35,506 nt of DNA from Sedimentisphaerales bacterium (GTDB lineage Bacteria > Planctomycetota > Phycisphaerae > Sedimentisphaerales > Anaerobacaceae): NCBI GenBank assembly GCA_028277585.1, contig JANQFY010000005.1, positions 1-35,506 on the forward strand. The letters run 5' to 3'. This document shows, piece after piece, positions 5,594 through 35,446 of this stretch. Each line of letters begins with the position of its first letter. Within the stretch, counting starts at the first letter, position 1. The notes under the pieces were generated by a model. That model was given only the letters and a program-made list of their open reading frames with translations. It was not told the DNA's origin and did no database searches. A program made the translations under genes and the position numbers.

Positions 5594-5609
5594 CTGAATC
5601 CAACGGCGC

Positions 5610-5637
5610 GACGTGCAATCGCTGGAAGGACGTGCAA
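5610..5637 (+). repeat. Short direct repeat, GACGTGCAA x2
   Basis: GACGTGCAA occurs at 5610-5618 and again at 5629-5637, a 19-bp period (just under two helical turns), in the 86-bp gap between the esterase and M60 peptidase genes. It could be a tandem protein-binding site or simply a small duplication. Confidence 0.3.
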
Positions 5638-5679
5638 GAGCCAAGACTAGTGAAACGACTTCTCTGAAGAGAATCAGCT

Positions 5680-7653: not shown

Positions 7654-7663
7654 AGGAATACGA

Positions 7664-8452: not shown

Positions 8453-8461
8453 GAGAAGCGG

Positions 8462-9532: not shown

Positions 9533-9548
9533 GGAAGGCGGAACGGAT

Positions 9549-11192: not shown

Positions 11193-11211
11193 CCCAAACA
11201 AAGGACTCAAC

Positions 11212-13296: not shown

Positions 13297-13357
13297 ATAA
13301 CAGCCAGGCTGTAAGATGAGGCGCAACGAGAAACGTGAAGGTAGAGAGGAAACACTC

Positions 13358-19914: not shown

Positions 19915-19963
19915 GGGACAACTTGTTGTCCGACTACACGGGCGGAACGAAAGGACCATGAGA

Positions 19964-20416: not shown

Positions 20417-22632
20417 AAACCGTTCTGCGACTCTCGGAGATTGACGAAGCCTCGCGCCCGACTGCGGGCGGCAAGGCCGTCGCGCTGGCGCAGATAGCCC
20501 GTACGGGGCTGGCCGTGCCCAAGGCGATCTGTGTGGGAGCACTGGTATATGATCGTTTCGTGGACGCGACGGGACTGCGGGCGCGGATCGTCATGGAGTA
20601 TGAACGCAAGCCGTTCGACCAGATGCGCTGGGAGGAGATCTGGGACACCGCGCTGCGCATTCAGAATCTGTTCATCAACACGGCTTTTCCCTCAGATATT
20701 TCCGCTCTGCTGCGTACAAAGATTGGGAGCGAATTCGGCCGTGTTCCTGTCGTGGTCAGATCGTCGGCTCTGGGCGAAGATTCGAGCAAGACCTCTTTCG
20801 CCGGGTTGCACGAGTCGTTTGTGAACGTCCGAGGTGTCTCGGCCATTCTTGAGCACATCAAACTGGTGTGGGCCTCGCTGTGGTCCGATCGAGCCATGCT
20901 GTACCGATCCGAGATCGGATTGGACATTCACGACAGCAAGATGGCGGTGATTATTCAGGAACTCGTATCGGGAGAGCGGTCGGGTATCGCCTTTGGGGTC
21001 AGCCCCACCGACGAATCGAAAGCGGTCATTGAGGCGGTGCATGGTCTGAATCAGGGCCTGGTCGACGGCACGATCGAGCCGGACCGGTGGACCGTTGCCA
21101 GGAAAAACGGTGCCATTCGATCCCATACGGCGCCGACACGCACCAAAATGATGGTGGCACGGGCTCGGGGAGTCCGTGTGGTGCCCATCCCCAAGAAGAT
21201 GCGTACGACCGCGCCGCTCGTGAAACACGAGGTGACAGAAGTCTATCGCACCACTCGCAAGCTGGAGCGCATCTTTGGATGCGCGCAGGACGTTGAATGG
21301 ACGTACCGCGGTCCTCAGATGTGCCTACTGCAATCGCGACCCATAACCACGGCAACTGATATCTCGGAGCAGGACAGTCGCCCCTGGTACATGTCGCTCC
21401 ATCGCAGTCTGGACAACCTGACAACGCTAAGCCGGGACATCGAAACGAACTACATCCCACAGATGATTTCAACCGCAAAGACGCTGGCCGATCAAGCCCT
21501 CGACCTCCTGCAAACGCAAGAGCTTGTCGCGGCGATTCGTGAGAGGGCCCGCGTCTACGCTCATTGGCAGCAGGTCTACTGGGATTATTTCATTCCCTTC
21601 GCCCACGGCATCCGGTTCTTTGGACAGATCTACAATCGCATGGTCAAGCCGAAGGATCCGCACGAGTTCGTGCGGCTGTTGCCAGGTGCGCTACTCAAGA
21701 GTGTGGAGCGTAACCGCCGACTCATGAAGATCGCTTCTACGACCAGGCGGCGAGACCAGGCCAAGGGCAGGCACGGTCATTCCCGAAGCGATGATGGATT
21801 TTCTGAAGTATTACGGGGCGCCGACAGTTCGACCTTGAGAGCGCTCATGTCCACGGCGTCTGCTGACAGGCAAGCGGCGTTCTTCAAGGAACTAGGCGCC
21901 GTTGCGAATCAGAGGGGTACGAGAAAGCACCGCGATGGAGAAACGCTAGCCCGACGTTTTCTGGATTCGTTTCCGGCGCGCGAGAGGCCCAGCGCTGAGC
22001 GTTTGCTCGATCTGGCCCGGGCCAGCTACCGACTGCGTGATGATGACAACATCTACCTGGGCCGTATTGAGGCCGAACTGCTGCGAGCCCTGGTCGAGGC
22101 CCAGCGCCGGTCCAGAAGGGCAGCCAGACTGGAGGTGGTCAGCTCCGAGGTGGACCAGTTTGTCCGCGCGTTGACGGACCCCGCGTTCAAACCGTCACGC
22201 AAGAGGCGTGTCTCCAAGGGCCTACCAGAACAGGCTGTCAGAGCACGGCAACTCATTGGCCAACCGGCCGGAGAAGGAGTCGCAGTCGGAAGGGCTCGCG
22301 TGATTAAACGCCCTGAGGATTTGCTCGACTTCAAACGGGGCGAAATCCTCGTATGCGATGCGGTGGATCCCAATATGACCTTCGTAGTCCCGTTGGCGGC
22401 CGGCGTGGTTGAGCGCCGCGGGGGCATGTTGATCCACGGTGCCATCATCGCGCGTGAGTATGGTCTGCCATGCGTAACGGGCGTGCCTGAGGTCACTGCG
22501 ACGCTTCGAACGGGCGACTGCATCACAGTGGATGGGTATCTGGGTATCATCACGGTCGGTTCGTCAACAGACACCCCAGAGCGATCCAAGTTCACCGGTC
22601 CGAGATCCAGGGCCGAAGAGTCACCACGCTAG
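20413..22632 (+). CDS. PEP-synthase-like phosphotransferase without the PEP-binding barrel
   Basis: A 739-residue cytoplasmic protein, coupled by a 4-bp overlap to the PNPOx-like gene. Residues 1-315 are a PPDK_N ATP-grasp module (PF01326): AGGKAVALAQIARTGLAVPK, VVVRSSALGEDSSKTSFAGLHESF, and VEWTYRGPQMCLLQSRPI at its end. Residues 640-730 are the mobile phosphohistidine domain (PF00391): RGGMLIHGAIIAREYGLPCVTGV, with His675 as the phospho-carrier. The middle ~300 residues are basic and helical and do not look like the TIM-barrel PEP/pyruvate domain, so it is not a standard PEP synthase or PPDK. Rifampicin phosphotransferases share this ATP-grasp/substrate/His order, so phosphorylation of some small molecule is plausible. 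Its 3' end overlaps the convergent glycosylase gene by 4 bp. Confidence 0.78.
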   Translation: MKTVLRLSEIDEASRPTAGGKAVALAQIARTGLAVPKAICVGALVYDRFVDATGLRARIVMEYERKPFDQMRWEEIWDTALRIQNLFINTAFPSDISALLRTKIGSEFGRVPVVVRSSALGEDSSKTSFAGLHESFVNVRGVSAILEHIKLVWASLWSDRAMLYRSEIGLDIHDSKMAVIIQELVSGERSGIAFGVSPTDESKAVIEAVHGLNQGLVDGTIEPDRWTVARKNGAIRSHTAPTRTKMMVARARGVRVVPIPKKMRTTAPLVKHEVTEVYRTTRKLERIFGCAQDVEWTYRGPQMCLLQSRPITTATDISEQDSRPWYMSLHRSLDNLTTLSRDIETNYIPQMISTAKTLADQALDLLQTQELVAAIRERARVYAHWQQVYWDYFIPFAHGIRFFGQIYNRMVKPKDPHEFVRLLPGALLKSVERNRRLMKIASTTRRRDQAKGRHGHSRSDDGFSEVLRGADSSTLRALMSTASADRQAAFFKELGAVANQRGTRKHRDGETLARRFLDSFPARERPSAERLLDLARASYRLRDDDNIYLGRIEAELLRALVEAQRRSRRAARLEVVSSEVDQFVRALTDPAFKPSRKRRVSKGLPEQAVRARQLIGQPAGEGVAVGRARVIKRPEDLLDFKRGEILVCDAVDPNMTFVVPLAAGVVERRGGMLIHGAIIAREYGLPCVTGVPEVTATLRTGDCITVDGYLGIITVGSSTDTPERSKFTGPRSRAEESPR

Positions 22633-23381
22633 ACGATTTGACAGACTGGACAGAAGTAGGTCGAACGACGCTGCTTTCCCTGTCGAATCATCGCGATGCG
22701 ATTTCCACATTCGTAACACCTCATCCCGGCCCGTCGATAGACACGGTGGGTCCACCGGCCTCCGGCTCTGTAGCTTTCCCACATGACGTAGAGAATGGAC
22801 TCAGCCAACTTCGCCACGCGCTCGGGTCGCAGTATGGAGACCCTTGCCTGAGGATGGATGCGGGCCAGAAACAGGGCCTCGCTCTTTGCCACGTTACCGA
22901 TGCCGCTGAGCACGGATTGATCGAGTAACACCTCTCCCAGAGGTGCCTCCTCTCGACGCATGGCGGCGACAATCCTCTCCCGTGAGCATTCGGCCGACAT
23001 GACATCGAGTCCCAGTGAATCCAACTGTTGCTGTAACCCATCCCTGTCGAGCACACGAAGGACTTGTCCATTGACATTGCTCACGGTGACGTTACCGACC
23101 TCCAGGGCCAGCCACATTTCGGTCGGCAAGAGTAGCAGTCGTCCCTTGACGGTTCGCCAGCGGCCCCGCATCAGCAGATGGTTCTGTAGAAAGATGTCAG
23201 GGGAGAATTCCAGGAATATGTGCTTGCCTTTGCAGAAGATACGTTCGACGCGGGCTCCCCTGATCGACTGGGCAAAGACGCGCAAGTTGTCACGCGTAGT
23301 CTTGCAGTCAGTGATCACCTGACCCTGCAATTGTCTCCCCAGTCGCTCAGTGATCAGTTTCACTTGGGGGCCTTCAGACAC
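22629..23381 (-). CDS. Fpg/Nei-family DNA glycosylase with Ser2
   Basis: A 250-residue enzyme on the minus strand, starting at a GTG (23381) with AGGTG 6 nt upstream. The start is firm because the protein then begins with the conserved xEGPxV block. Glu3, the beta-hairpin lysine in CKGKHIFLEF, the HLLMRGRW block, the H2TH motif (LSGIGNVAKSEALFLARIHPQ split across residues near 160-180) and a C-terminal zinc finger (CYEC...CPVC) are all present. The family removes oxidised bases and nicks the abasic site. In nearly all Fpg and Nei proteins the catalytic residue 2 is proline. Here it is serine (codon TCT), leaving a primary amine as possible nucleophile, as with Val2 in NEIL3. It overlaps the convergent phosphotransferase gene by 4 bp. 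Confidence 0.88.
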   Translation of the reverse strand: MSEGPQVKLITERLGRQLQGQVITDCKTTRDNLRVFAQSIRGARVERIFCKGKHIFLEFSPDIFLQNHLLMRGRWRTVKGRLLLLPTEMWLALEVGNVTVSNVNGQVLRVLDRDGLQQQLDSLGLDVMSAECSRERIVAAMRREEAPLGEVLLDQSVLSGIGNVAKSEALFLARIHPQARVSILRPERVAKLAESILYVMWESYRAGGRWTHRVYRRAGMRCYECGNRIAMIRQGKQRRSTYFCPVCQIV

Positions 23382-23408
23382 GATCGCACCTATCGGCGAA
23401 ACTCACAA

Positions 23409-23891
23409 CTAGCGTGCTTCGAGACGGCCGCTATTCTGAATAGCGGCAGAGAAGCGGGATCGGATCGCCTCGATACGGCGTTTGTTCAGTCCCAGATCCG
23501 AATAGCCGACCCGGGAAGCCGAGCGGACGTGGATGACGTTCTCCTCAGCGGCCATTCTGAACTCCACGTCATCGACAAAGCGGAACACCTTTGTGCGGAA
23601 GGTTGCCCAGATGTATTCATCACCCTGACGTGTGATCGTTCCTCCCATCTCTTGGAGAACCTCCTTGAGATGCTCCCAGGCCTGCGTGGACGAACCATCG
23701 AATTCTAGGGGCGCTACCCAGGAGTCGACCTGCCGATCTTCGCTGCAAACACAGTTGGGTTTGGCTGGACATGGACGCAAGCGTCCCTCGTATAGACCCG
23801 TCACGGGCGGACGGGCGCTGCATGAAAGCGCCACGAGCAATAGGCATACTAACAGGGAGCTTCCTGCTAGAAAAAGGAGTGCCGCCTGCAT
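23409..23891 (-). CDS. DUF1499 family lipoprotein
   Basis: A 160-residue protein on the minus strand. The frame is open upstream to a TTG at 23948, but the ATG at 23891 has a GAGG site 9 nt upstream and begins a hydrophobic signal ending in a lipobox-like ALSC (residues 24-27). The mature part CPAKPNCVCSEDRQVDSWVAPLEFDG, WEHLKEVLQEMGGTI and FVDDVEFRMAAEENVIHVRSASRVGYSDLGLNKRRIEAIR is the DUF1499 (PF07386) pattern. The function of the family is unknown. It lies 27 bp upstream of the glycosylase in the same direction, so the two probably share a transcript. Confidence 0.85.
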   Translation of the reverse strand: MQAALLFLAGSSLLVCLLLVALSCSARPPVTGLYEGRLRPCPAKPNCVCSEDRQVDSWVAPLEFDGSSTQAWEHLKEVLQEMGGTITRQGDEYIWATFRTKVFRFVDDVEFRMAAEENVIHVRSASRVGYSDLGLNKRRIEAIRSRFSAAIQNSGRLEAR

Positions 23892-24220
23892 GACTCTTTT
23901 CCTCTTCTCTCTGGACCAACCTGTTACGTACTGCCAAGTTCGACTCAATCAAAGCCCTTTCCCTGAGAATCACTGGGGCCACTGACCCCCAATCCGTCAA
24001 ATCATTGTTCATCAAGTCCTTTTTCTCGACATACGAACGAGGCCTGGGAGAGATCGACCGAAAAACGCGTACATTGCTCTTCTTTTTGCTCGACCAACTG
24101 GTAGGCTGAGATGCTACTTGCGAACTCAGACCAAGAGCATGGGTATAACTAGGGTACATGCTGTGAGCTTCAACCAGGTCTGATTCGGCTCTCACAATGG
24201 TCATGAAAGGGGACAAGGCA
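23892..24220. promoter_or_regulatory. Divergent intergenic region with a dyad around a candidate -10
   Basis: About 330 bp between the divergent DUF1499 and CIA30-FAS1 genes, with no convincing gene. A candidate -10 TATAAC (24144-24149) is enclosed by the perfect inverted repeat AGCATG (24136-24141) / CATGCT (24157-24162). The best -35-like string, TTGCGA (24118-24123), is 20 bp upstream, a long spacer of the kind used by MerR-type activators. Suggestive only. Confidence 0.3.
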
Positions 24221-25540
24221 ATGAAAGCAACCATTCCGGGCACGCGTGTTCTGGCAGTCGTCTGCACTCTCATTTCCAGCTTTGTCTCCGTTGCGTTCGC
24301 CTTTGAGTCCGAACCAAAGTCGCTGACGGATTTCTCCGATGCGTCACCCGCCCTGCAATGGCGGTCTGTGAACGACGGTGTCATGGGGGGGCTCTCAGAA
24401 GGCGCCTTCCGATTGACCGATGACAAAACGCTTGTGTTCTATGGACGCATCTCGTTGGAGAACCGAGGTGGCTTCGCCTCCATTCGCACGCGGCCGAGAG
24501 ACCTGGATCTGGGGGGCTATGATACGATCGCCCTTCGCGTCAAAGGTGATGGGAGGATGTATTACTTCAACCTGAGGACCTCTTCTTACCGCACGGCCGG
24601 ATCCTATCGGGCACCTGTTAGAACACGAGAGAATGCTTGGCAAGAGGTTAGGATTCCACTGAAGGATTTCTACTACTCTGCCTACGGCCGGCGTATCACG
24701 CGAGCTGAACGCTTGAGGGCCAACAATGTTCAGAGTGTCGGCTTCACACTCGCGGACAAGCAGGCCGGTCCGTTCCGGCTCGAGGTTGACTGGATCAGGG
24801 CGGAGAAGGCTACGGAGGGATCAGTATCCACCAGTGGAGGACCCGGCGAGAACTCAGCCCTGAACAAGGATATCGTGGACACGGCCGTTGCGGCAGGACA
24901 ATTCGAGACACTGGTCGCTGCTGTCAAAGCTGCCGGGCTCGTTGAAGCACTGAAGGGTGAGGGACCTTTGACAGTCTTTGCCCCGAGTGATGATGCCTTT
25001 GCCAAGCTGCCCGAGGGCATGGTTGAAGAGCTTCTCCAGCCGGAGAACCGTGACAAACTCAGGGCTGTCCTATCCTACCACGTCGTCTCTGGAAGAATCC
25101 TTCTGGGAGCCCAGACGCCGACGACGCTACAGGGCCAATCAGTGACAATCAAAACGAATGGATCATTCAAGGTGAACGGGGCCAAGGTGACAGCACCCGA
25201 TATCGTTGCATCCAACGGCGTGATTCACGTCATCGACAGTGTCTTGATGCCGCCGGCGGGTGAGTCGACGCCTCAAGAAGCGGCACGGACGGTGATAGAG
25301 CTCGCCATTAGACGCGGCGTGCCTTTGTTCAATGCGGGGCAAGCTTCAGCCTGCACGGCGATCTATGAGATTGCCGTCGAGTCCTTGCTGAAATCACATG
25401 GAGATACACTGGGTGCGCAGGACCGTTCAACACTGCAGAGCGCCCTTGACAAGATGCGAAGCGAGGAGGATTCCCGCCAGCAAGCCTGGACGTTGAGGCG
25501 GGCTCTCGATGCGGTCTATCAATCGCTTGGCCAAGAGTGA
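24221..25540 (+). CDS. Exported CIA30-FAS1 two-domain protein
   Basis: A 439-residue protein. Three in-frame ATGs exist (24197, 24203, 24221). The last is chosen because GGGGA lies about 8 nt upstream and a signal peptide follows at once ([20 protein letters not shown]...AFA). Residues ~34-195 are a CIA30/complex I intermediate-associated domain (PF08547; hallmark [15 protein letters not shown] at 48-61, then [33 protein letters not shown]). Residues ~216-350 are a fasciclin (FAS1) domain ([56 protein letters not shown]). The last ~85 residues are helical and unassigned. FAS1 domains mediate adhesion or bind hydrophobic ligands, and bacterial CIA30 domains are poorly characterised. A second FAS1 protein lies at 34793. 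Confidence 0.82.
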
Positions 25541-25634
25541 TGGCTCGACGGGCGGCTGTGAGTTTTGCCCTTGCCGGCACTACTTTGAAGGGCGACTCTG
25601 TAGGAATCCCCCTTGCGAAGCGGTCTATGAACGC

Positions 25635-25659
25635 GTTAGACTCACTCCTGTTGTCTAAC
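25635..25659. promoter_or_regulatory. Operator-like perfect inverted repeat upstream of the desaturase
   Basis: GTTAGAC (25635-25641) and GTCTAAC (25653-25659) are exact reverse complements separated by 11 bp, so the half-sites sit 18 bp apart centre to centre. It is 95 bp after the CIA30-FAS1 stop and 59 bp before the desaturase start, and no T-tract follows. It fits a dimeric regulator site controlling the lipid operon better than a terminator. Confidence 0.45.
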
Positions 25660-25717
25660 TGACTGCTGACAGACCGATGACGAATACTGAGATGGATCGC
25701 GTTTGAGCGGGAATCGG

Positions 25718-26683
25718 ATGACAAGCAATCGGGCGCAGTTGACGAGCAAACAACTATTCATGTCGATCCGCCGCTGGTTCGATGAAGAAGCCGGGGCGGA
25801 GGAACTGGCCGGGCGGGATCCGGATCGGGTTGATTGGCTGCGTGTTGTGCCGTTCGTCTCGCTGCATCTGGCGTGCCTATTGGTCTTCTGGGTGGGCTGG
25901 AGTCCGGTTGCCGTCGGTGCGGCTGTCGGGCTCTACGTTATCCGTATGTTGGCCATCACCGGTGTTTACCACCGCTACTTCTCACACCACACCTACAAGG
26001 CGTCACGATTCTGGCAGTTTCTGGGAGCCTTGGTCGCGGCGACCAGCGCCCAGCGCGGCCCGCTCTGGTGGGCGTCCCATCACCGTCACCATCATCGTTT
26101 CGCCGATCAGCCGGAGGACATTCACTCGCCTATCCAAAGGGGATTCCTCTGGAGTCATCTGCTTTGGATTCTGACTCCCAGGTACTTTGCCACGAACCGG
26201 CAATTGGTCAAAGACTGGTCGCGGTTCCCGGAACTGGTCTTCCTGAATCGGTTCGACATCTTGCCGCCACTGGGCTTGTTGCTCGTTCTACTGCTGGTCG
26301 GGAGGCTGCTGGGGGCCTACGCACCAGCGCTGGGTGCCTCTGGTCTGCAGATGGCGGTTTGGGGATTCGCTATCTCCACCGTGGTTCTCTTCCATGCGAC
26401 CGCGACGATCAACTCTCTGGATCATCTGATCGGGCGACGGCGGTACGACACGCCCGATCACAGTCGTAACAACTGGTTCCTGGCGCTGCTCACGTTCGGC
26501 GAAGGCTGGCACAACAATCACCACCATTATCCCATCGCCACCCGGCAAGGCTTCTTCTGGTGGGAACTCGATGTGACATACTACGTACTGGTCGTGCTAT
26601 CCTGGCTGCGAATCGTGAAGGACCTTACCCCATTGTCGTCGGCGAAGAGAGCCAGCAACCGACTCACGGCTTCGGAACCCTAG
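25718..26683 (+). CDS. Membrane fatty acid desaturase (delta-9 acyl desaturase type)
   Basis: A 321-residue membrane protein with the three histidine boxes of front-line acyl-CoA/acyl-lipid desaturases (PF00487): HRYFSHH (residues 85-91), HHRHHH (121-126) and HNNHHH (265-270). GEGWHNNHH and DxPEDIHSP-type context are typical of delta-9 enzymes (DesC/OLE1-like). Hydrophobic spans lie at about 43-85, 145-155, 185-200 and 212-228. A TTG at 25703 is in frame. The ATG at 25718 is preferred, though the ribosome site (GCGGGA) is weak. The di-iron enzyme inserts a cis double bond, which would supply the unsaturated acyl chains used by the two downstream CfaS-like methyltransferases. Confidence 0.88.
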   Translation: MTSNRAQLTSKQLFMSIRRWFDEEAGAEELAGRDPDRVDWLRVVPFVSLHLACLLVFWVGWSPVAVGAAVGLYVIRMLAITGVYHRYFSHHTYKASRFWQFLGALVAATSAQRGPLWWASHHRHHHRFADQPEDIHSPIQRGFLWSHLLWILTPRYFATNRQLVKDWSRFPELVFLNRFDILPPLGLLLVLLLVGRLLGAYAPALGASGLQMAVWGFAISTVVLFHATATINSLDHLIGRRRYDTPDHSRNNWFLALLTFGEGWHNNHHHYPIATRQGFFWWELDVTYYVLVVLSWLRIVKDLTPLSSAKRASNRLTASEP

Positions 26684-26710
26684 TGAGCTTGGACAATCGC
26701 AGGAGGTGAC

Positions 26711-27961
26711 ATGCGCATCGCGGTGATCGGCAGCGGCATTTCCGGCATGGTGGCAGCCTACCTGCTCCATCGCGACCATGACATTACAGTGTTCGAAGCC
26801 AACGACTACGTCGGGGGACATACGCATACGGTCGATGTCCCCTCGGGCAGCGGGCAAGTCCCGGTGGACACGGGTTTTATCGTCTTCAACGAGCGGACCT
26901 ACCCGAACTTCGTCGCGCTCTTGCGCCGCCTCGGGGTGTCCTGGCAAGACAGCAACATGAGCTTCAGTGTGCATTGCGAGAGAACGGGACTCGAGTACAG
27001 CCCCAGTTCGCTCGGGACGCTTTTCGCCCAGCGCCGCAATCTGCTGCGGCCTGCTTTCTGGCGTATGATACGAGAGATCTTCGCTTTCCGACGCGAACTT
27101 CCGGAAACAGCCAGGCTTCCCGAGACGGCTAGACTCGGAGACCATCTTCGCGAACGACGGTACTCGCGCACTTTCCGAGAGCACTTCATCGTCCCCATGG
27201 GGGCGGCGATCTGGTCGGCCGAACCGACTCGATTTGAAGACATGCCGGCGTGCATGTTCGCGCGCTTCTTTGCCAATCATGGGTTCCTGAACGTACGCGA
27301 TCAGCCCCAGTGGTTGGTGATCAAGGGAGGTTCGCGAGAATACGCCAGGGTCTTGACGGCGTCCTTCCAGGATCGCGTCCGTCTGAGCTGCCCGGTCGTG
27401 TCCGTACGCCGCGCGCCCGATACTGTGGAAATCGAGAGTGCGGACGCTCAGATTGAACGCTTTGACCAGGCGATTATTGCCGCCCACAGCGATCAGGCGC
27501 TGCGCTTACTTGCGGATGCGACAGATGCAGAGCAGGAGATCCTCAGCGCCATTCCATATCAGGACAACCAGGTTGTGCTGCATACGGACACAACTCTCTT
27601 GCCCGAACGACGCAAAGTGTGGGCGAGCTGGAACTACCGGATCCCACGTCAGCCGCAGGACGCGGTGGCGGTCACGTATGACATGAGCATTCTCCAGAGC
27701 CTGAACGCGGATCGCGAGTTCTGTGTGACCCTGAACCCGATGGGGATCATTGATGCAGATAGGATTTTGCGGCGAATGACATATGCGCACCCTGTCTATA
27801 GCCCGCAGGCTCTGGCGGCGCAGCGACGTCACAGAGACATAAGCGGCGTGAACCGGACACATTACTGCGGCGCCTATTGGGGCAACGGCTTCCACGAAGA
27901 CGGCGTCAACAGCGCACTGGCCGTGTGCGAGTACTTTGGCAAGGGCCTGAGCGATGCATAG
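26711..27961 (+). CDS. FAD-dependent oxidoreductase of the CfaS/DUF1365 cluster
   Basis: A 416-residue amine-oxidase-fold flavoprotein with a near-perfect AGGAGGTGAC ribosome site. GSGISG (residues 7-12) with FEANDYVGGHTHTVDV is the FAD-binding N-terminus. VDTGFIVFNERTYPNFVALLRRLGV, the IWSAEP block and the C-terminal CGAYWGNGFHEDGVNSAL are diagnostic of the subgroup always found beside DUF1365 and cyclopropane synthase genes. It probably oxidises (desaturates) a methylated or cyclopropanated acyl chain. The exact reaction is inferred. Residues 130-141 are a tandem duplication of LPETAR. Its 3' end overlaps the next gene by 8 bp. Confidence 0.88.
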   Translation: MRIAVIGSGISGMVAAYLLHRDHDITVFEANDYVGGHTHTVDVPSGSGQVPVDTGFIVFNERTYPNFVALLRRLGVSWQDSNMSFSVHCERTGLEYSPSSLGTLFAQRRNLLRPAFWRMIREIFAFRRELPETARLPETARLGDHLRERRYSRTFREHFIVPMGAAIWSAEPTRFEDMPACMFARFFANHGFLNVRDQPQWLVIKGGSREYARVLTASFQDRVRLSCPVVSVRRAPDTVEIESADAQIERFDQAIIAAHSDQALRLLADATDAEQEILSAIPYQDNQVVLHTDTTLLPERRKVWASWNYRIPRQPQDAVAVTYDMSILQSLNADREFCVTLNPMGIIDADRILRRMTYAHPVYSPQALAAQRRHRDISGVNRTHYCGAYWGNGFHEDGVNSALAVCEYFGKGLSDA

Positions 27962-28730
27962 TGCGATCTACGAGGGGACTGTGCGTCATCGCCGGTTCGC
28001 GCCGGTGAGCAATGAGTTCACGTACCGCCTCTTCATGATGTACCTGGACTTGGACGAGCTTGCGGAGGTCTTCCGGGGGCGTTGGCTGTGGTCGTCCGAG
28101 CGTCCCAACCTGGCTTGCCTACGTCGACGAGACCATTTGGGTGATCCAGCCGTATCCATCGAACAAGCCGTTCGCCAGTTGATTGTCGAACACACCGAAG
28201 CAGATCCGGTCGGCCCAATTCGTTTGCTCACGCATCTGCGCTATTGGGGGCATTGCTTCAACCCCGTCAGTTTCTTCTACTGCTATGATCGGGCCGGCGA
28301 GAAGCTGGAGACTATCGTCGCGGAGATCACGAACACGCCTTGGCACGAGCGGTATTGCTACGTTCTGCCCGAGCCGATGAATGAGCATCCGGGGTGCTGG
28401 AAGCGCTACCGCTTCCCGAAAGCGTTTCACGTCTCGCCCTTTATCGATATGAACGTCGATTACGATTGGCGATTTCTCACGCCCGGGGAGCGTATCCAGG
28501 TCCACATGGAGGACTATGTCGCGGACGAGAAGCTATTCGACGCGACCTTGAGCCTACGTCGCAGGCCGATCACCGGCTCCAACCTACGCCGCGTCCTTGT
28601 CCGCTATCCTCTCATGACGGTTCAGGTCGTGACGAAGATTCACTGGCAAGCAGTACGCCTCTGGCGCAAAGGCGCCCCGTTCTACGTGCATCCCAAGAAA
28701 CGAAGACCCGTCCAAGGAGACCCTCAATGA
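27954..28730 (+). CDS. DUF1365 family protein
   Basis: A 258-residue soluble protein of the DUF1365 family (PF07103): YEGTVRHRRFAPVSNEFTYRLFMMYLDLDEL at the start, then LLTHLRYWGHCFNPVSFFYCYD, EITNTPWHERYCYVL, KAFHVSPFIDMNVDYDWRF and a basic C-terminus. No catalytic mechanism is established. The family almost always sits between the FAD oxidoreductase and CfaS, as here. It overlaps the upstream gene by 8 bp and the downstream gene by 4 bp (ATGA), so all three are translationally coupled and likely act as one pathway on membrane lipids. Confidence 0.9.
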   Translation: MHSAIYEGTVRHRRFAPVSNEFTYRLFMMYLDLDELAEVFRGRWLWSSERPNLACLRRRDHLGDPAVSIEQAVRQLIVEHTEADPVGPIRLLTHLRYWGHCFNPVSFFYCYDRAGEKLETIVAEITNTPWHERYCYVLPEPMNEHPGCWKRYRFPKAFHVSPFIDMNVDYDWRFLTPGERIQVHMEDYVADEKLFDATLSLRRRPITGSNLRRVLVRYPLMTVQVVTKIHWQAVRLWRKGAPFYVHPKKRRPVQGDPQ

Positions 28731-30019
28731 AGGACAAGATCAGCCCGGCCCAAGCGAGCGAGCGGCCTTCCGAGGGACAGCGTGTCACAGATCGCTGGAT
28801 GCGAAATGCCGTCCAGAATCGGCTCGAGAGATTGACGTGGGGCAAAGTCACTCTCCTCGAAGATGATTCGACTCTGGTCTTTGGAGGCAATTCGGAGGAC
28901 GCGCCCCAAGTCGCGATCACCGTGCACAGCCATCGACTCTTCAACTCTCTGGCGCTGGGCGGCAGTGTGGGCGCAGCCGAAGCCTACATGCGCGGTGACT
29001 GGTCCTGTGACGATCTGCCGGGGCTCGTCCGTATCCTTGTGCGCAACGCCTCGGTGATGTTTAACATGGAAGGGGGATTCGCCCGACTCACGCAAGCGGG
29101 ACTGCGCCTCTATCACTGGCTGCGCCGCAACACGAAGCGCGGCAGTCAACTGAACATCTACGCGCATTACGATCTGGGCAACGAATTCTACTCGCTGTTC
29201 CTTGATGAGACCATGACCTACTCGTGCGGCGTCTTTGCGACGGCGAAGAGCACGCTGGCCGAGGCCTCTGTCGAGAAGTACGACCGGATTTGTCGCAAGC
29301 TTGACCTGGGCCCCTACGATCACGTCGTGGAAGTCGGTTGCGGCTGGGGCGGTTTTGCCATCCATGCCGCCACCCGGTATGGATGTCGCGTTACCGGTAC
29401 GACGATCTCGCAGCAACAGTACGACTGGGCCTCGCGCACGGTGAAGAAACTGGGGCTTTCGGACCGCGTGCAGATTGTGAAGCAGGACTATCGCGATCTG
29501 CAAGGAACCTATGACAAGCTGGTCAGCATCGAGATGATCGAGGCGGTCGGACATCAATACCTCGGGCAGTTCATGCAACACTGCAGCAGGCTTCTCAAGC
29601 CAAACGGCCTGATGGCACTGCAGGCCATTACCATTGCCGATCAGTACTACGCCCAGCACATTCGCACGGTCGACTTCATCAAGCGGTATATCTTTCCGGG
29701 CAGTTGCCTGGTCTCTGTCACGGTCCTGTGCGAGACCGCCACTCGGAAGACCGATCTGCGTGCCGTCCAGCTCGAGGACATTTCGCCTCACTACCCCGAG
29801 ACCTTGCGGAGGTGGCGCGATGCCTTCTTCGAGCGACTCGATGACGTCAGAGCCCTGGGCTATGATGAGGCGTTCATTCGCATGTGGGAGTTCTATCTCA
29901 GCTACTGCGAAGGGGCGTTTGCCGAGCACTACATCGGGGATATCCAGATAGTCTTTGCCAAGCCGCTTCATCGCCAAGCGAGCCCGGTGGAGTATGACCA
30001 ACCAGAGCTGTTGACATGA
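28727..30019 (+). CDS. Cyclopropane-fatty-acyl-phospholipid synthase family methyltransferase
   Basis: A 430-residue SAM-dependent lipid methyltransferase (PF02353). The frame is open upstream within DUF1365, but the ATG at 28727 has AAGGAGA 6 nt before it and overlaps the DUF1365 stop. NIYAHYDLGNEFYSLFLDETMTYSCG (with Cys167 at the usual bicarbonate-site position) is followed by the SAM motif VEVGCGWGGF (201-210), the SIEMIEAVGHQY block and HIRTVDFIKRYIFPGS. Such enzymes add a methylene or methyl carbon from SAM across an acyl double bond. Products may be cyclopropane, 10-methyl or, with partner oxidoreductases, furan fatty acids. Fourth gene after the desaturase in the same direction. Confidence 0.9.
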   Translation: MKDKISPAQASERPSEGQRVTDRWMRNAVQNRLERLTWGKVTLLEDDSTLVFGGNSEDAPQVAITVHSHRLFNSLALGGSVGAAEAYMRGDWSCDDLPGLVRILVRNASVMFNMEGGFARLTQAGLRLYHWLRRNTKRGSQLNIYAHYDLGNEFYSLFLDETMTYSCGVFATAKSTLAEASVEKYDRICRKLDLGPYDHVVEVGCGWGGFAIHAATRYGCRVTGTTISQQQYDWASRTVKKLGLSDRVQIVKQDYRDLQGTYDKLVSIEMIEAVGHQYLGQFMQHCSRLLKPNGLMALQAITIADQYYAQHIRTVDFIKRYIFPGSCLVSVTVLCETATRKTDLRAVQLEDISPHYPETLRRWRDAFFERLDDVRALGYDEAFIRMWEFYLSYCEGAFAEHYIGDIQIVFAKPLHRQASPVEYDQPELLT

Positions 30020-30034
30020 GAAGGGCGGGATGTC

Positions 30035-30619
30035 TTGAGAGCGTTGCTGTATGTCATTGGTGAGACCATCGGGTGGTTTGCCTGCATTCTGGGCGCCGCC
30101 GGCGGGATTCATTGGCTGGGGGCACCCGTTGTGGCGACCCTATTGGCCTTCCACCTCATCACTCGCACAGAGCGTTCTGTCCTTCGCATACTAAGCGTGA
30201 CGTTGGTCTCGATCTGCTTTGGGTTCTGCCTTGATTCGTTGCTGATACTTGTCGGCGTGTACGCACCGAACCGCTGGCTGATCCCGTCGCCGATGGCGAC
30301 GATCTGGCTTCTGATACTCTGGGCTAACTTCTCGCTGATCGTGGATGTGCCGCTGAGGTGGCTGCAACAACACCTTGTTGTCGCTGTTGCGTTCGGGGGA
30401 CTCTTCGGCCCGGCGGCCTACTTGGGCGCCCAGCGACTGGGCGCCATCCACATCGCCGAGCCGGCCGGTGTCCACGTGGTTGTTCTCGCCATGGCCTGGG
30501 GGCCTGGCCTGGCATTCCTCATGTTCTTGGCCCGACGGTTGCCCAACTCCAAGCCTGAGGCTGATGAACCCGCCGCATCCCGAAGACCATCTCAAGTCAA
30601 GCGCTTCTCGAAGAGGTAG
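30035..30619 (+). CDS. DUF2878 family membrane protein
   Basis: A 194-residue protein with five to six membrane segments (about residues 6-40, 48-74, 86-105, 112-132, 142-166) and a hydrophilic tail. It starts at a TTG (30035), with an AAGGGCGGGA site, 15 bp after the CfaS stop. An ATG at 30030 is out of frame. [26 protein letters not shown] and [19 protein letters not shown] match the DUF2878 pattern (PF11086), a family seen beside CfaS and DUF1365 genes. Function unknown. A role in lipid handling in the membrane is inferred from context. Its last 28 bp overlap the convergent methyltransferase gene. Confidence 0.82.
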
Positions 30620-31629
30620 TGGCTCACGAACCACTCGTTGCCCCTACGAAAGCCCCACAGCTCGGCGCAGGCCATGAAGAAGATGCGCCACCTTTGGACC
30701 CAGCGCTCCGCCTCGCCGGGGCCATAGACCTTGGCGAGGACGGGCAGAATCTCCTCTCGGCGGACGTCCATGTTTTCCAGCCAGGCCTCAGCAGTCCTCT
30801 GATAGTGCGTTCCATTCAGGCGCCAGTGATCGCGTAACATCAGGTCGTCCTGGAAATAGAGCAGCAGGTCGTCCGATGGCATGATCCCCCCGGTGAAGAA
30901 ATACTTGCCCATCCAGTTGTCTTCGCCTTCGGTTTCGAAGAAGTAGGCGTAGTCACGGTGGCTGAAGATATGAACGAATAGCTTCCCCCCAGGTTTGAGC
31001 CACCCGGCGATACGAGCCAACAGCGTCTGGTAATTCCGCATATGCTCGAACATTTCGATCGATACGGCCCGGTCGAAGCGTCGCTCGATCTCGAACGTAT
31101 TGGCGTCGGCCGTGACAACCTCGATATTCATCAGGTTCTGGCGTCTGGCCTTCTCGGTGATGAAATCCCGTTGCAGGGCGGAGTTGGAGACCGAGAGGAC
31201 GTGACAGTTCGGATAGTGCTCAGCCGTCCACAGACCGAACGACCCCCAGCCGCAGCCCAGATCGAGGATCTCCATGCCGTCAACAATACCGGCGCGCGTA
31301 CAGACCTGCTCCAGAGCCGCCTCCTCGGCTGCGTCCAGAGAGGTCACGCCGGCCGGCCAGTAGCAGCAACTGTACTTGAGACGTCGGCCCAGGGCCATCT
31401 CCATGAAGGCCGGCGGCATCTCGTAGTGCTGCTCATTGGCCTTGTCGGTGGCGACGGCGACCGGACTTCGCCGCAACTCCTGCACGAGTTCCATCTTGGC
31501 CTGCAACTGGTCCGCGGGGCTGTTGCGTCGCTCCAATCTCAACCGCCGCCGATCCAAAGCACGGATACCCGCGCGGACCAGCGAATCGGGCACCCAGCCA
31601 CGTTCCATCATGGAAATCAGTCGTTTCAT
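30592..31629 (-). CDS. Second CfaS-like SAM-dependent methyltransferase
   Basis: A 345-residue methyltransferase on the minus strand. [27 protein letters not shown] resembles the CfaS entry block (Cys88). [14 protein letters not shown] (121-134) is the SAM site, followed by [15 protein letters not shown] and [15 protein letters not shown]. It is shorter at the N-terminus than the 28727-30019 paralogue and closer to the coclaurine N-methyltransferase-like branch of the family. It is coupled to the DUF1295 gene by an ATGA overlap (31626-31629). That pairing recurs in lipid modification clusters, so an acyl-chain substrate is likely. N-methylation of a small molecule cannot be excluded. Confidence 0.85.
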
Positions 31630-32414
31630 GAGATCTCCCGTTTTGGGAACCAGGGAATGAACGCGCTGGTTCTTTGCTGATAGCGACGGTAGTCCTCACC
31701 GCGTGTCTGCAGGGCCCGCTTCTCGGTATACGGAATCCCTGTCACTTTGTACAGAAACAACAACATCACTATCGGGCCCAGGAACGTCACCCACCGGTAT
31801 GACGAACCGAACCCGAGGCAGACATACGCGAACCAGTGAATCCACTCGAAGAAGTAGTTCGGATGCCGACTGTAGCGCCAGAGACCCACCTGGCAGGTCT
31901 TGCCCTTATTCTGCGGATCGGCGCGGAAGCGAGCCAATTGCCGATCCGCCAACGTCTCGCCTGTGACAGCCGTCAGCCAGATCCCAAACCCGAGCGCGTC
32001 CACCCAGCCCAAGGCGCCTTTGCTGTAGACCACGGGCAGGAATGGGATGGAGAACATGATTGCCCATAGCGCCTGGATCTGAAAGAACCCGAGGAAGAAC
32101 ACCGAGGCGCGATCGCCCCAGTTCTGCCGCAGCATCTGGTATCGGCCGTCTTCCGGCTTTCCTAGAATGCGATCAAAGAGCAGGTAGACCGCCAGCCGCA
32201 TGCTCCAGGTACCGGCCAGAACCGCCAGTAGGACACGCCGACCAACGTCGCCTGATGCGGCAACAGCGTAGAAGACAGCCAACCCACCAATGCCCGCGGC
32301 CCAGACGAAATCGACAATGCCCGCGTTCCTGGTTCGCCGTTGGATGAAGTAGAACGCCAGCATTGTCAGAGCCATGACGGCCCAACCGATCAGAATGGCT
32401 TGCCCTGGGCTCAT
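31626..32414 (-). CDS. DUF1295 (steroid 5-alpha-reductase-like) membrane reductase
   Basis: A 262-residue membrane protein with about six hydrophobic spans and an AGGAAGGGA site before the ATG at 32414. The C-terminal block [22 protein letters not shown] and [33 protein letters not shown] are the NADPH-binding and end signatures of the DUF1295/5-alpha-reductase family (PF06966). Family enzymes reduce C=C bonds in lipids or steroids using NADPH. Here it probably reduces an intermediate made by the coupled methyltransferase, as in the methylation-then-reduction route to 10-methyl fatty acids (inference). Confidence 0.88.
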
Positions 32415-32518
32415 GGGGCGTCCCTTCCTGTGCGATCAAGGTTCAGGTTCGCGGCAAGGTCAAGACCAGACACTTGTTTGTGTAAGGTTCTTACCGGCCG
32501 CCTGTTCGTTTCCAGCCG

Positions 32519-32539
32519 ATGTGGTCAGTCGGACCACAT
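32519..32539. terminator. Perfect 8-bp hairpin just after the SUMF1 gene
   Basis: ATGTGGTC (32519-32526) and GACCACAT (32532-32539) form an 8-bp stem with a 5-nt loop, starting one base after the stop codon of the minus-strand SUMF1 gene and 105 bp upstream of the DUF1295 start. No T-tract follows, so it may be a Rho-assisted terminator, or an operator for the DUF1295 operon. Confidence 0.45.
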
Positions 32540-32540
32540 G

Positions 32541-33479
32541 CTAATCAAGATCCAAAACGACGCGAAACCCCAAGTTGCTGCAACGGATGCTGGGCTTGTC
32601 CCGGTATCGCTTGGCCGCCCGGCAGCCCTTGGGGTAACTGCTCCAGTCACCCCCGCGCAGGACACGGAACTCGCCGCTCTTGGGGCCGGTAGGGTCCGTT
32701 GCAGGGCTATCTTGGTAGTAGTTCTGGCCATACCAGTCGCTGCAGAACTCGAGCACATTGCCGTGCATGTCGTGGAGGCCGAACGCGTTAGGCCGAAACT
32801 GTCCTACCGGCGCGGTGAAGGTGTACCCATCCGACCAGGGAAACAGAAGCGATGGCGAAGGAACCCTGGAGAACTCCGCTCTGGCAGACTGATCCGCCAC
32901 ATTGCACCAACCTACGCCGTCTTCCGGTCGATCGCCCCAATGGTAGGCCGTGTCCGTGCCGGCTCGACAGGCGTACTCCCATTCGGATTCGGTGGGCAGG
33001 CGATAGCGCTTGCCCTCGCGATGCCCCAGCCAGCGACAGAACTCCACCGCGTCATACCAGCTCACACAGACAACGGGATGGTCGTCCGTTTGCGCAAATC
33101 CCGGATTTCGAAGGGAGACCCCCCGAACCATCTGAAACGAGCCGCGACGCCATGCGTACGACCAGCCTTCTCGCTCGGCCTGCGTTTCCCACACGGCGTC
33201 GCTGACAAACGCGGCGAAGTGTCTCCTCGTTACTTCGGTCTGGCCCATGTAGAACCCTCTGGTAAGGCGAACCTTGTGCAGAGGGATCTCATCTACGCTC
33301 TCACCACTCCTCGGCGGGGCGCTGCCCATGTGAAACTCGCCACCCGGCACAAAGACCATCCTCATGCCCAGCGAGTTTGTGATATAGGGCGGCGGCGTGA
33401 ACTGCAGTTCGTCGCCGGCTGGTATTGCCAGCGCTGGTTTCAGGGCAACAAACAGGATAATGGGAAGGCTCTCGTACAT
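32541..33479 (-). CDS. Exported formylglycine-generating-enzyme-fold (SUMF1) protein
   Basis: A 312-residue protein with a probable signal peptide (MYESLPIILFVALKPALA). The SUMF1/FGE domain (PF03781) spans ~35-310: LGMRMVFVPGGEFHMGS, HKVRLTRGFYMGQTEVT, HPVVCVSWYDAVEFCRWLG, RLPTESEWEYACRAG, NAFGLHDMHGNVLEFCSDWYG, RVLRGGDWSSYPKGCRAAKR and SNLGFRVV. True sulfatase-maturing enzymes have a Cys-x4-Cys pair in the segment before GFR. Here only one cysteine (in KGCRAAKR) lies in that segment, so it is probably not a formylglycine generator. Planctomycetes carry many such exported relatives of unknown function. The ribosome site is weak. No clear link to the lipid genes. Confidence 0.85.
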   Translation of the reverse strand: MYESLPIILFVALKPALAIPAGDELQFTPPPYITNSLGMRMVFVPGGEFHMGSAPPRSGESVDEIPLHKVRLTRGFYMGQTEVTRRHFAAFVSDAVWETQAEREGWSYAWRRGSFQMVRGVSLRNPGFAQTDDHPVVCVSWYDAVEFCRWLGHREGKRYRLPTESEWEYACRAGTDTAYHWGDRPEDGVGWCNVADQSARAEFSRVPSPSLLFPWSDGYTFTAPVGQFRPNAFGLHDMHGNVLEFCSDWYGQNYYQDSPATDPTGPKSGEFRVLRGGDWSSYPKGCRAAKRYRDKPSIRCSNLGFRVVLDLD

Positions 33480-33644
33480 GCGTCAAGACCAGTCGGTACT
33501 GCACTTCTAGATACCAACGCAAAGGTGGTTCGCAAAGGCTATGTGCTACTGCAACAGTGTAACAACTTGTCGGTCCGCGTCCAGACGTCTACATACGCCG
33601 GGCAGGGCATGCGAGTTGTGCTGTGAGCGGTAACTCGCCGGGCC

Positions 33645-34520
33645 TCAATTCGGTTTGTAGAGGCTCTGGGCGAAACCCCGGAGATGGTGAAGGTTATCGC
33701 CGAATGAGGCATACTGGAGTCGCTGACGCACCGATCTGGTCAAGGCCCGCCCACCAACTACAATGGCACACTGCTTTCGGCAGATCTCGTAGAGACGACC
33801 GTATTCCTCAAGAAAGTCCTCAGATTCCGCCAGGCTAGAGAAGCTCAACCATAGCGCACGAGGGCGAAGATCTTCGACTGCCTGCGCGATGGAATCGATC
33901 GGCAGTGCGCTGCCGAGAAAGCGTGCCTGCCAGCCTAGTTCAAGGAGCACCAACTCGCACAGTTTCCCTGGCAAGCTATATGGATCCCCCACCGGCGTAG
34001 CCCCAATCGCGGCTGGTGCGGTCGGGGCAGGGGGGGGCAGAGTCTCCCGGAGACGGGCCAGTACGTGCCGAGTGATTTCCACGCCGCGCCGTTCATGATA
34101 CACCTCTGCCTCGCCGTGAGCCCAGCGTTGGCCCAGATTGTGGAATGCGGGGGCAATGATGCGATCACCTATAGCCGCCATGTCGTGGCCGGCCAAACGC
34201 AGGTCAAGTGTCAACTGCAGACAGCGGGATTCATCTCCCTGCTCCAACGCCTGCCCATAGAGCTGGCAAGCCTGGTCCAAGGTTCGTGAGCCGGTCCCGA
34301 CAGATGGGGGCAGCCCCAGCACCTCCGGTTGGGCCAGATTGATGGCATTCTCTCTGACGAAGTCCAAGACCACGTGCACCGGTATCCGGCGATGCCCTCC
34401 AGCCGTCTTGGTGAACGATAGAATCCCTTTGTCGCACCACCGCTTGATCGTCGCTTCGCTGACCCCGAGCGATCGTGCCACTCGGTTCGGGCTATATACC
34501 TTGTTTTGCCTTAGGTTCAT
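33645..34520 (-). CDS. MerR-type regulator with degenerate cobalamin-binding domain (LitR/CarH-like)
   Basis: A 291-residue regulator. Residues 7-60 are a MerR/excisionase winged helix (YSPNRVARSLGVSEATIKRW, then GGHRRIP). Residues ~80-160 match the four-helix cap (PF02607) and ~170-290 the B12-binding Rossmann fold (PF02310: LVLLELGWQARFLGSALP, LWLSFSSL, IVVGGRAL), the same order as the photosensors CarH and LitR. However, the cap motif W-x9-E-H is W133-x9-E143-Arg144, and the ligand histidine of D/E-x-H-x-x-G is replaced by tyrosine (DPYSLPG, 179-185). It therefore probably does not bind adenosylcobalamin in the known way. It is divergent from the 34793 FAS1 gene and likely controls it and the nearby lipid genes. 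Confidence 0.85.
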   Translation of the reverse strand: MNLRQNKVYSPNRVARSLGVSEATIKRWCDKGILSFTKTAGGHRRIPVHVVLDFVRENAINLAQPEVLGLPPSVGTGSRTLDQACQLYGQALEQGDESRCLQLTLDLRLAGHDMAAIGDRIIAPAFHNLGQRWAHGEAEVYHERRGVEITRHVLARLRETLPPPAPTAPAAIGATPVGDPYSLPGKLCELVLLELGWQARFLGSALPIDSIAQAVEDLRPRALWLSFSSLAESEDFLEEYGRLYEICRKQCAIVVGGRALTRSVRQRLQYASFGDNLHHLRGFAQSLYKPN

Positions 34521-34655
34521 GGGTTGTCGCCTTTATATGATTGTTATGACTGTATATCTATTATCCCAAAATACGCTATGAATGCCCTCTAGTTCGTGAT
34601 TTGCGGCCATCTAGAGCCAATATGAAAGAAAATATGGGAAAAATCGAAAAAGGCG

Positions 34656-34708
34656 TGAACGAATTCCGCGTGATAGGACTATGCGGATCTGAACGTTTTG
34701 AACGAATT
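34656..34708. repeat. Repeated TGAACGAATT motif in the regulator/FAS1 divergent region
   Basis: TGAACGAATT occurs at 34656-34665 and 34699-34708 (43 bp apart, about four helical turns), and the core TGAACG occurs again at 34690-34695. The copies lie in the AT-rich 272-bp gap between the MerR-type regulator and the FAS1 gene, so they are candidate regulator-binding repeats. Confidence 0.4.
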
Positions 34709-34792
34709 AATGACGGAGTCGATTGTAGTACATTTAGACCTGTAATCATGACCAAGATTCAAATCTGACGAGCATACCGAAAGGAAGAAATC

Positions 34793-35446
34793 ATGAAGAC
34801 TCAAATTGTTGCCATCACGATTGCGTTGCTTACCTATGGAACCTCTAATGCATTGGCTTGCAGTGGATGTGGGTGTACAGCCAAGGCTCCGTCGGCTTGC
34901 AGCCAGGGCGAACAGGCCAAACTGACTGACATCGTACACACGGCCGAGCATGCCAAACAATTCACCACATTGTTGGCCGCCTTGGAAGCAGCCGACTTGG
35001 CGGAGGCGTTGCGGGGCCCCGGCCCGTTTACTGTCTTTGCCCCGACGAACAAGGCTTTTGCAGCACTTCCGGAAGGGACTGTTGAGTCGCTGCTGAAGCC
35101 GGAGAATAAGGGCAAGCTGCAGGCCATTCTGAAATACCACGTGGTCGCAGGGCGAGTCATGTCCTCCGAATTGATGAAGTTCCAGAATGCCAAGACGCTG
35201 CAAGGAAACAAGTTAGACCTGACGCTGCGGATCAATGACGCCCGCGTGATCAAGCCGGACATCAAGGCGACCAACGGCGTTATTCACGTAGTCGACCGTG
35301 TCATCCTGCCCGGGGGCGCCAAGCCCATCTCGGGGTACGCGACCAAGAAGGCACCGGCGCAGACTGACAAGACCATCGTCGAAACGGCCATGGAAGCGGG
35401 GCAGTTCAAGACGCTCCCCACTGCGAGCAGTTGTTTGCTTCTTTGA
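34793..35446 (+). CDS. Exported fasciclin (FAS1) domain protein, 3' end probably disrupted
   Basis: A frame of 217 residues with an AAAGGAAG site before the ATG and a signal peptide (MKTQIVAITIALLTYGTSNALA) followed by a Cys-rich CSGCGC segment. One complete FAS1 domain spans ~38-170 (LTDIVHTAEHAKQFTTLL, GPFTVFAPTNKAFAALPEG, LKYHVVAGRVM, ATNGVIHVVDRVILPG), similar to that of the 24221 protein. After a linker, a second FAS1 repeat appears to begin (KTIVETAMEAGQFKTL), but the frame ends after nine more residues. Another frame stays open from about 35368 to the window edge. Either a frameshift or a sequence join lies near 35415, so the true protein may be longer. Divergent from the MerR-type regulator. 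Confidence 0.75.
   Translation: MKTQIVAITIALLTYGTSNALACSGCGCTAKAPSACSQGEQAKLTDIVHTAEHAKQFTTLLAALEAADLAEALRGPGPFTVFAPTNKAFAALPEGTVESLLKPENKGKLQAILKYHVVAGRVMSSELMKFQNAKTLQGNKLDLTLRINDARVIKPDIKATNGVIHVVDRVILPGGAKPISGYATKKAPAQTDKTIVETAMEAGQFKTLPTASSCLLL

Follow-up and report, generated by a model that had tools for sequence, protein, structure and literature searches.

A furan fatty acid-type gene cassette beside a LitR/CarH-like regulator with a candidate direct-repeat operator in a planctomycete genome

Two described systems are close to the locus considered here, which lies at positions 22629-35446 of a 35,506-nucleotide stretch of DNA from a Sedimentisphaerales bacterium (the window; it is the entire contig C501 of a 7.17 Mb assembly in 532 contigs that is 80% complete). 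Going by the excerpts of the literature on which all our citations draw, UfaM of Rhodobacter sphaeroides methylates cis-vaccenoyl chains, UfaD (RSP1091) then desaturates them, and UfaO (RSP1090), a DUF1365 protein, is required for the furan, whose oxygen derives from O2; a second methyl group is added by FufM in Rhodopseudomonas palustris (PMC7380195). In Pseudomonas, class II LitR controls phrB, ufaM, folE and other genes (PMC9758184). We propose that the window carries, in planctomycete form, a locus for protecting membranes from photo-oxidation, which would join furan lipids to a LitR-type repressor, and we put the probability of this reading, judged from sequence, at roughly 0.66. Its main elements are the following:

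24197-25540, + strand: CIA30 + FAS1 protein, directly 5' of the cassette (Pfam)
~25703-26683, + strand: fatty acid desaturase, heading the cassette (Pfam FA_desaturase, 7e-23)
26711-27961, + strand: flavin adenine dinucleotide (FAD) amine-oxidase-type protein, UfaD candidate (Pfam Amino_oxidase, 2e-26)
27954-28730, + strand: DUF1365 protein, UfaO candidate (Pfam, 2e-87)
~28727-30019, + strand: CfaS1, acyl methyltransferase, UfaM candidate (Pfam CMAS, 9.1e-84); this start was chosen by hand, the longest open reading frame (ORF) beginning at 28394
30035-30619, + strand: DUF2878 membrane-type protein (Pfam, 5.3e-26)
30592-31629, - strand: CfaS2, second methyltransferase, candidate of the FufM/LIME1/coclaurine N-methyltransferase (CNMT) type (best solved relative, 6gkv)
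31626-32414, - strand: DUF1295/steroid 5-alpha-reductase-like membrane enzyme (Pfam, 3.9e-71)
33645-34520, - strand: LitR/CarH-like MerR-family regulator (Pfam HTH_17 and B12-binding_2)
34536-34557, - strand: second candidate operator, weak, shortly before the start of the regulator gene (matrix score 17.0)
34690-34704, - strand: candidate operator CGTTCA-N3-CGTTCA between the regulator and FAS1 (the sole window site with at most one mismatch)
34793-35446, + strand: FAS1 protein, truncated close to the contig end (Pfam, 6e-39)

As in the Ufa/FufM pathway, an FAD enzyme, a DUF1365 protein and a Cfa-type methyltransferase are clustered here and a second, divergent S-adenosylmethionine-dependent methyltransferase is present, and the UfaM-, UfaD- and UfaO-type genes are adjacent or overlapping. 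The planctomycete cassette additionally clusters the desaturase, DUF2878, DUF1295 and the second methyltransferase, whereas fufM of R. palustris (RPA0924) lies, by its locus tag, apart from RPA2569-2571, and the R. sphaeroides ufa genes respond to ChrR (PMC7380195). In the scheme that we favor, the desaturase, which likely supplies a monounsaturated substrate, would provide the unsaturated acyl chain, CfaS1 would methylate it in the manner of UfaM, the FAD enzyme would desaturate the methylated chain again like UfaD, and the DUF1365 protein would insert oxygen and close the furan ring like UfaO. A second, FufM-like methylation by CfaS2 would then give rise to mono- or dimethyl furan fatty acids, which on phospholipids would quench singlet oxygen. 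With respect to the second methyltransferase, CfaS2 matches CNMT (6gkv) at 2.5e-82 and E. coli Cfa at 4.8e-28. LIME1 of Arabidopsis we take to be CNMT-like. The predicted model of the DUF1365 protein (pLDDT 93) contains a barrel, for which a fold search returned no match at E<=0.001; weak leads to nitrobindin/FABP-like barrels and to the spirocyclase OssO were insignificant and were not used.

The cassette core is widespread, and by homology it matches the published furan pathway. A scan for CfaS2 confirmed 522 loci, of which 80, from many phyla, were kept; several of these are short, so that all gene counts are lower bounds. DUF1295 is found in 65 of the 80, CfaS1 in 60, DUF1365 in 58, the FAD enzyme in 56, the desaturase in 45 and DUF2878 in 33, and the order desaturase-FAD-DUF1365-CfaS1-DUF2878-DUF1295-CfaS2 occurs repeatedly across phyla. 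Among relatives of the same genus or family, desaturase-FAD-DUF1365-CfaS1 is likewise preserved (the desaturase being in two pieces in G031), and behind CfaS1 stand DUF2878 and CfaS2 in both G005 and G031, with DUF1295 next in G005. In the relative G003, CfaS1 is interrupted by an N spacer, and DUF2878, CfaS2, DUF1295 and a partial FGE gene lie on another scaffold piece; a homolog of the CIA30-FAS1 protein, 73% identical, occupies the equivalent position upstream of the cassette. The Salinivibrio cluster L116 (MerR-phrB-NTF2-SDR-FAD-DUF1365-Cfa-DUF2878-hypothetical-DUF3833) shares the order FAD-DUF1365-Cfa-DUF2878 and a MerR-family regulator, but it includes a photolyase and DUF3833, has neither CfaS2 nor DUF1295 annotated, and the C-terminal half of its regulator did not align to the B12 motifs. 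Comparison of gene order across relatives had been named beforehand, in a first-pass annotation of this DNA, as a check on the island, and the core order is indeed kept across many phyla. The same annotation had tied the island to furan or methyl-branched chemistry, which homology supports, and had called it an independent version, which finds no support, the cassette being common to many phyla. Furan fatty acid biosynthesis would thereby be extended, in a form open to test, to Planctomycetota and further phyla, with a desaturase, DUF1295 and a second methyltransferase brought together in one cassette; among open full-text papers we found none that joins "furan fatty acid" with "planctomycet", and among the titles listed none points to the cassette.

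Linkage of this cassette to the regulator was followed through 294 genomes of the phylum, LitR being accepted at E<=1e-15 and at most eight LitR candidates being scored per genome, which makes all LitR counts lower bounds. DUF1365 occurs in 82 of the 294 and LitR in at least 59, and the two are found together in at least 42 genomes against 16 expected (Fisher p 8e-16, phylogeny ignored); this count omits the window's own genome and the fragment rows G318 and G098, neither of which lies near DUF1365. In at least 20 of the 42 they are no more than 3.3 kb apart. These 20 genomes span 10 genera in 4 families, two of the genera contributing five each, and the FAD-DUF1365-CfaS1 core adjoins LitR in every one of the 20 linked loci. 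Conserved order and regulator linkage thus go beyond a chance neighborhood.

The upstream regions of 24 LitR genes, of which some start codons are estimated and five regions come from one genus, revealed CGTTCA as the most enriched 6-mer (40 occurrences against 4.3 in shuffles, in 15 of the 24 regions). When 599,756 bases of loci were searched with at most one mismatch, tandem sites numbered 39 at a spacer of 3 and 1-10 at the other spacers from 0 to 11; a control word gave 0-5 sites in the same bases, and Markov shuffles of a slightly larger locus set gave 2, 6 and 7. The resulting 9-bp direct repeat, CGTTCA-N3-CGTTCA, is a candidate operator. It is present in 16 of the 20 linked loci, in 15 of which it lies 5' of LitR or in the gap separating LitR from its neighbor, these 15 representing 5 of the 10 linked genera. 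The repeat is also seen ahead of genes other than LitR. In G136 (L207), where LitR is on another contig, a perfect site at 5460 precedes the cassette desaturase (start 5570 or 5582); in L182 a site lies 20 bp ahead of the FAD gene (start 4271), and in L199 one at 6033 lies ahead of the FAS1-FAD genes (start 6115). A matrix, built from 24 of the 39 sites, so that later scans partly recover their own input, placed a site scoring 24.8 at 3741 of L198, ahead of a photolyase (start 3775), and one scoring 24.3 between FolE and LitR in L208. The sites of L034 and L177 overlap the longest readings of FolE and of a sigma gene, respectively, and where these two genes truly start is uncertain.

In the window, a scan with the matrix made without the window's own site scored 31.6 at 34688-34709 and 17.0 at 34536-34557, both between LitR and FAS1, while the remainder scored at most 10.8 and five shuffles peaked at 9.3-15.1. 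Across the whole genome 117 sites fall within one mismatch of the repeat, and a reversed control pattern gives 50; three of the 117 are perfect, and the two outside the window were dismissed, the one on C152 lying within a long ORF and the one on C195 between convergent gene ends. The candidate operator is seen at photolyase, FolE, ufa genes and regulator piecewise in other planctomycetes, and in the window at LitR and FAS1 only. The Pseudomonas class II operator is of another kind, TGTACA-N12-TGTACA (PMC9758184), and was sought here as T(G/A)TACA-N12-TGTA(C/T)A and rejected. At up to three mismatches the window has 23 matches, 21 of them with three and two with two (mean of 100 shuffles 10.8, largest 19); six of the seven within 22629-35446 are inside genes, the other, with three mismatches, lying at the regulator start (34514-34537), and L034 has 7 against 5.0 in shuffles, no clear excess.

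In the mechanism that we propose, the LitR-type repressor would bind CGTTCA-N3-CGTTCA ahead of its own gene and of the FAS1 gene, and light or photo-oxidative stress would release it from the repeat, which certain other planctomycetes also have ahead of the furan cassette. For the phylum, the photo-oxidative reading is supported by what lies near these genes. LitR adjoins photolyase in L198 and L206 and FolE in L208 and L034, genes that also belong to the Pseudomonas class II LitR regulon, in which a LitR-type repressor without B12 ligands is likewise found near ufaM and an FAD oxidoreductase (PMC9758184). FAS1 adjoins the cassette in L199 and LitR in L210 and L034, as it does the regulator in the window, and the pairing of FAS1 with the island made in the first-pass annotation recurs in this way. 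A scan of 20 chosen neighboring proteins from 12 of 14 listed loci added UvdE (L182, L184), glutathione peroxidase (L185, L196) and SOUL (L210). A parallel is offered by Chlamydomonas, where singlet oxygen induces, via SAK1, CFA1, CFA2/CPLD27 (annotated as a coclaurine N-methyltransferase), DUF1365, FAS2, SOUL2 and GPX5, so that a Cfa synthase, a CNMT-annotated gene, DUF1365, fasciclin, SOUL and glutathione peroxidase are co-induced there, albeit under a eukaryotic regulator and with no clustering of these genes described in the excerpts (PMC4067076). A fasciclin and folE2 likewise figure as raised genes in the table of a Rhodobacter review (PMC7074977). Gene content, linkage and operator together fit a photo-oxidative stress regulon, and FAS1 proteins become tied to photo-oxidative stress by linkage and a shared operator, in agreement with expression data from Rhodobacter and Chlamydomonas. 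Between LitR and the cassette at L177:10446-11441 lie genes for a sigma-70-type factor, with the candidate operator where its longest reading starts, and for a DCC1-like oxidoreductase.

A number of findings weigh against this reading. On the regulatory side, four of the 20 linked loci have no operator site and a fifth, L181, has both of its sites inside genes, and a LitR match occurs in just 2 of the 80 loci kept from the CfaS2 scan across phyla. Of the relatives searched in the genus and family, only G000 and G003 gave a strong match to LitR; G005 and G031 gave none, though both have the cassette, and in G003 LitR stands with FolE and FAS1 on a scaffold piece other than that of the cassette. 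The matrix scan of the window found no strong operator before CIA30-FAS1, the desaturase or DUF1295, leaving control of the lipid genes by the regulator without operator support in this genome, and in the stretches bearing the genome's own photolyase and FolE genes the top scores were 13.8 and 10.4, away from those genes. DUF1365 itself is patchy, occurring in 7 of 61 related genomes including the window's own, one instance being a 33-residue match. A comparison of DUF1365 relatives covered 37 of 54. The remaining neighbors in the scan are for the most part unrelated to stress (sulfatase, D-glutamate cyclase, STAS, a sigma-54 regulator, epimerase, a DNA polymerase III subunit, acetyltransferase, TPR, URO-D) or without a match. 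Nei, which would speak for DNA repair, is near the cassette in G031 alone, G005 giving a 20-residue match. On the chemical side, CfaS2 appears FufM-type by way of the LIME1/CNMT group and not by direct comparison with FufM (FufM is 37.87% identical to LIME1; PMC10940516), and a cyclopropane product of CfaS1 is possible, being compatible with a glutamine discussed below.

The strongest competitor, to which we give not quite an even chance, takes the regulator and FAS1 as a separate photo-stress unit beside a cassette that is under control of its own, for example by an extracytoplasmic function (ECF) sigma factor. It is favored by the position of the only strong operator, between LitR and FAS1, and by the two units being on different scaffold pieces in G003; a distance of 2.2 Mb between LitR and cassette in that genome was discarded, since its scaffolds are joined by runs of 100 N, and only "different pieces" stands. 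An ECF-like element, GAACTC-N15-GTATAA, lies upstream of CIA30-FAS1 at ~24125-24155 of the window and is conserved in G003; we regard it as a lead only. Against this separation stand the linkage of LitR to the cassette in 20 further planctomycete genomes, of which 15 have operator sites between genes, and the operator ahead of the unlinked cassette of G136. Under the photo-oxidative locus reading, the part supported in this genome is that the regulator would control FAS1 and itself. The first-pass annotation had placed the whole island under one regulator, which is unsupported here because strong operators are confined to the LitR-FAS1 interval and LitR of G003 is on another piece; the link that it drew between LitR and the lipid genes holds in at least 20 of the 42 other planctomycete genomes that have both, though not by way of any strong operator before the lipid genes of the window.

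It is rather improbable, in our estimation, that the cassette instead yields cyclopropane or mid-chain methyl-branched acids, with the DUF1365 and FAD proteins merely adjusting the modified chain. Cfa synthases are the nearest solved structures to CfaS1, but labeling CfaS1 a cyclopropane synthase is at odds with the loss of the bicarbonate-site residue: of 91 aligned CfaS1 copies 89 are readable, and all 89 have Gln in place of Cfa H266. Cotton cyclopropane synthases also have Gln there (PMC3132707), so that this residue is indecisive between a furan and a cyclopropane product. What tells against cyclopropane or methyl-branched acids, besides the missing His, is that UfaD- and UfaO-type genes adjoin CfaS1 in an order conserved in many phyla and that the set includes a second, non-Cfa methyltransferase.

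Still more doubtful is the idea of an ordinary B12 photoreceptor, with the regulator being a CarH that tolerates Tyr for His. Its layout, a MerR-type helix-turn-helix (HTH), a B12-binding_2 domain and a Rossmann-like half, and its likeness to 8jbs (1.4e-28), the best match among solved structures and itself a putative cobalamin-binding protein, would allow it; like CarH it combines the MerR-type HTH with a B12-type helical bundle and a direct-repeat operator (PMC8156234, PMC10442372). CarH is, however, defined by the motifs WX9EH and E/DxHx2G (PMC8156234), the His of the latter being the cobalt ligand, His177 in Thermus thermophilus CarH (PMC10442372), and both defining motifs fail here: the window regulator reads WX9ER, has DPY at the cobalt-ligand site (D-x-Y and not E/D-x-H) and goes with 9-bp and not 11-bp repeats. 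Among 34 regulators including that of the window, 31 have Tyr, 2 His and 1 Asp at the ligand position, and the WX9EH positions retain Trp in 32 and Glu in 33, with His in 14 and Arg in 20 at the EH-His; rows L186-L189 of this alignment are almost alike, and it excludes L194 by length filter (Tyr at the ligand position, Arg at the EH position) and L105, which matches in the HTH only. A second, partly overlapping set has Tyr in 31 of 31. Both sets were gathered by likeness to Tyr-type proteins, and His-type relatives may be under-sampled. The NCBIfam CarH model scores the regulator at 40 against a cut-off of 400, and the Pfam B12-binding match falls under its cut-off. Because Tyr replaces the cobalt His and WX9EH reads WX9ER, the protein is, by motif, LitR/CarH-like but not CarH as defined, and His-ligated B12 sensing of the CarH kind is unlikely; the LitR/CarH-like label given at first pass stands by the HTH and B12-binding_2 domains. 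With a MerR HTH, a sub-threshold B12-binding match and missing ligand residues, it conforms in this respect to class II LitR, differing from the Pseudomonas proteins (PplR/PmlR; PMC9758184) in keeping a Rossmann-like half with the conserved Tyr. An AlphaFold model (pLDDT 54, from two sequences only) was unusable, and LitR searches on plasmids gave two weak matches only.

A class of LitR that falls outside what defines CarH in this way gains a specific candidate operator and a conserved residue. Tentatively, and at odds we place clearly below even, the planctomycete proteins could form a sensor class in which Tyr replaces the cobalt His, an alternative chromophore or partner is used, 9-bp repeats are bound and a regulon of furan-lipid, FAS1, photolyase, FolE and sigma genes mirrors the green-algal singlet-oxygen response; the chromophore may be a Tyr-ligated corrinoid, a heme or porphyrin, or a bilin.

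That the genes are neighbors by chance, without functional meaning, is very improbable: the rarity of DUF1499 (3 of the 80 loci), FGE (4) and Nei (0) and the patchiness of DUF1365 among relatives would fit it, but the core order conserved across phyla, the regulator linkage and the spacer-specific operator largely refute it for the core and the regulator, though not for Nei, DUF1499 and FGE. These three genes are:

22629-23381, - strand: Nei/Fpg-family DNA glycosylase (Pfam H2TH and Fapy_DNA_glyco)
23409-23948, - strand: DUF1499 protein (Pfam, 1.8e-38)
32541-33479, - strand: FGE-sulfatase-domain protein (Pfam, 9.1e-68)

Pfam confirmed every gene that the first-pass annotation had named in 22629-35446 at its claimed position, and the FGE-sulfatase-domain gene, which separates DUF1295 from the regulator, is one that it had omitted. 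Membership of the three in the module has little comparative support. FAS1 and CIA30-FAS1, like Nei, were found in none of the 80 loci, and the coupling to oxidised-DNA repair that had been read from Nei is weak; the glycosylase is probably a neighbor and not a member. DUF1499 is also near the cassette in G031, and the C-terminal part of FGE, 81% identical, adjoins DUF1295 in G003/CP070782.1 (L036). From its N-terminus, we would guess that the CIA30 + FAS1 protein is exported. The FAS1 gene at 34793-35446 is cut short, since its ORF leaves the frame of the 334-residue, two-FAS1-domain G003 relative (L034) just before the contig end at 35506; the departure is either a genuine truncation or an assembly error.

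The closest matches of CfaS2 come from a Phycisphaerales metagenome-assembled genome (MAG), CP070782.1 (84% identity), and a Phycisphaerae MAG (76%), in keeping with the planctomycete-like genome suspected at first pass. G003 is apparently CP070782.1, the CfaS2 coordinates coinciding although the stated lengths are 100 bases apart; the one-contig MAG chromosomes G003 and G022 (L008, L034, L036, L013) contain 100-N spacers, across which distances are meaningless. Upstream of the locus, at 19958-22632 on the + strand, a PNPOx-like gene is followed by one for a PPDK-N/PEP-utiliser protein; PPDK-like genes, present in 2 of the 80 loci, also adjoin the cassette in L008, L010 and L038. The region 688-15832 of the window is given over to carbohydrate use, with a GH106 rhamnosidase, SASA esterase, M60 peptidase, nucleotidyl transferase, SSF transporter, Laminin_G_3 and GH95.

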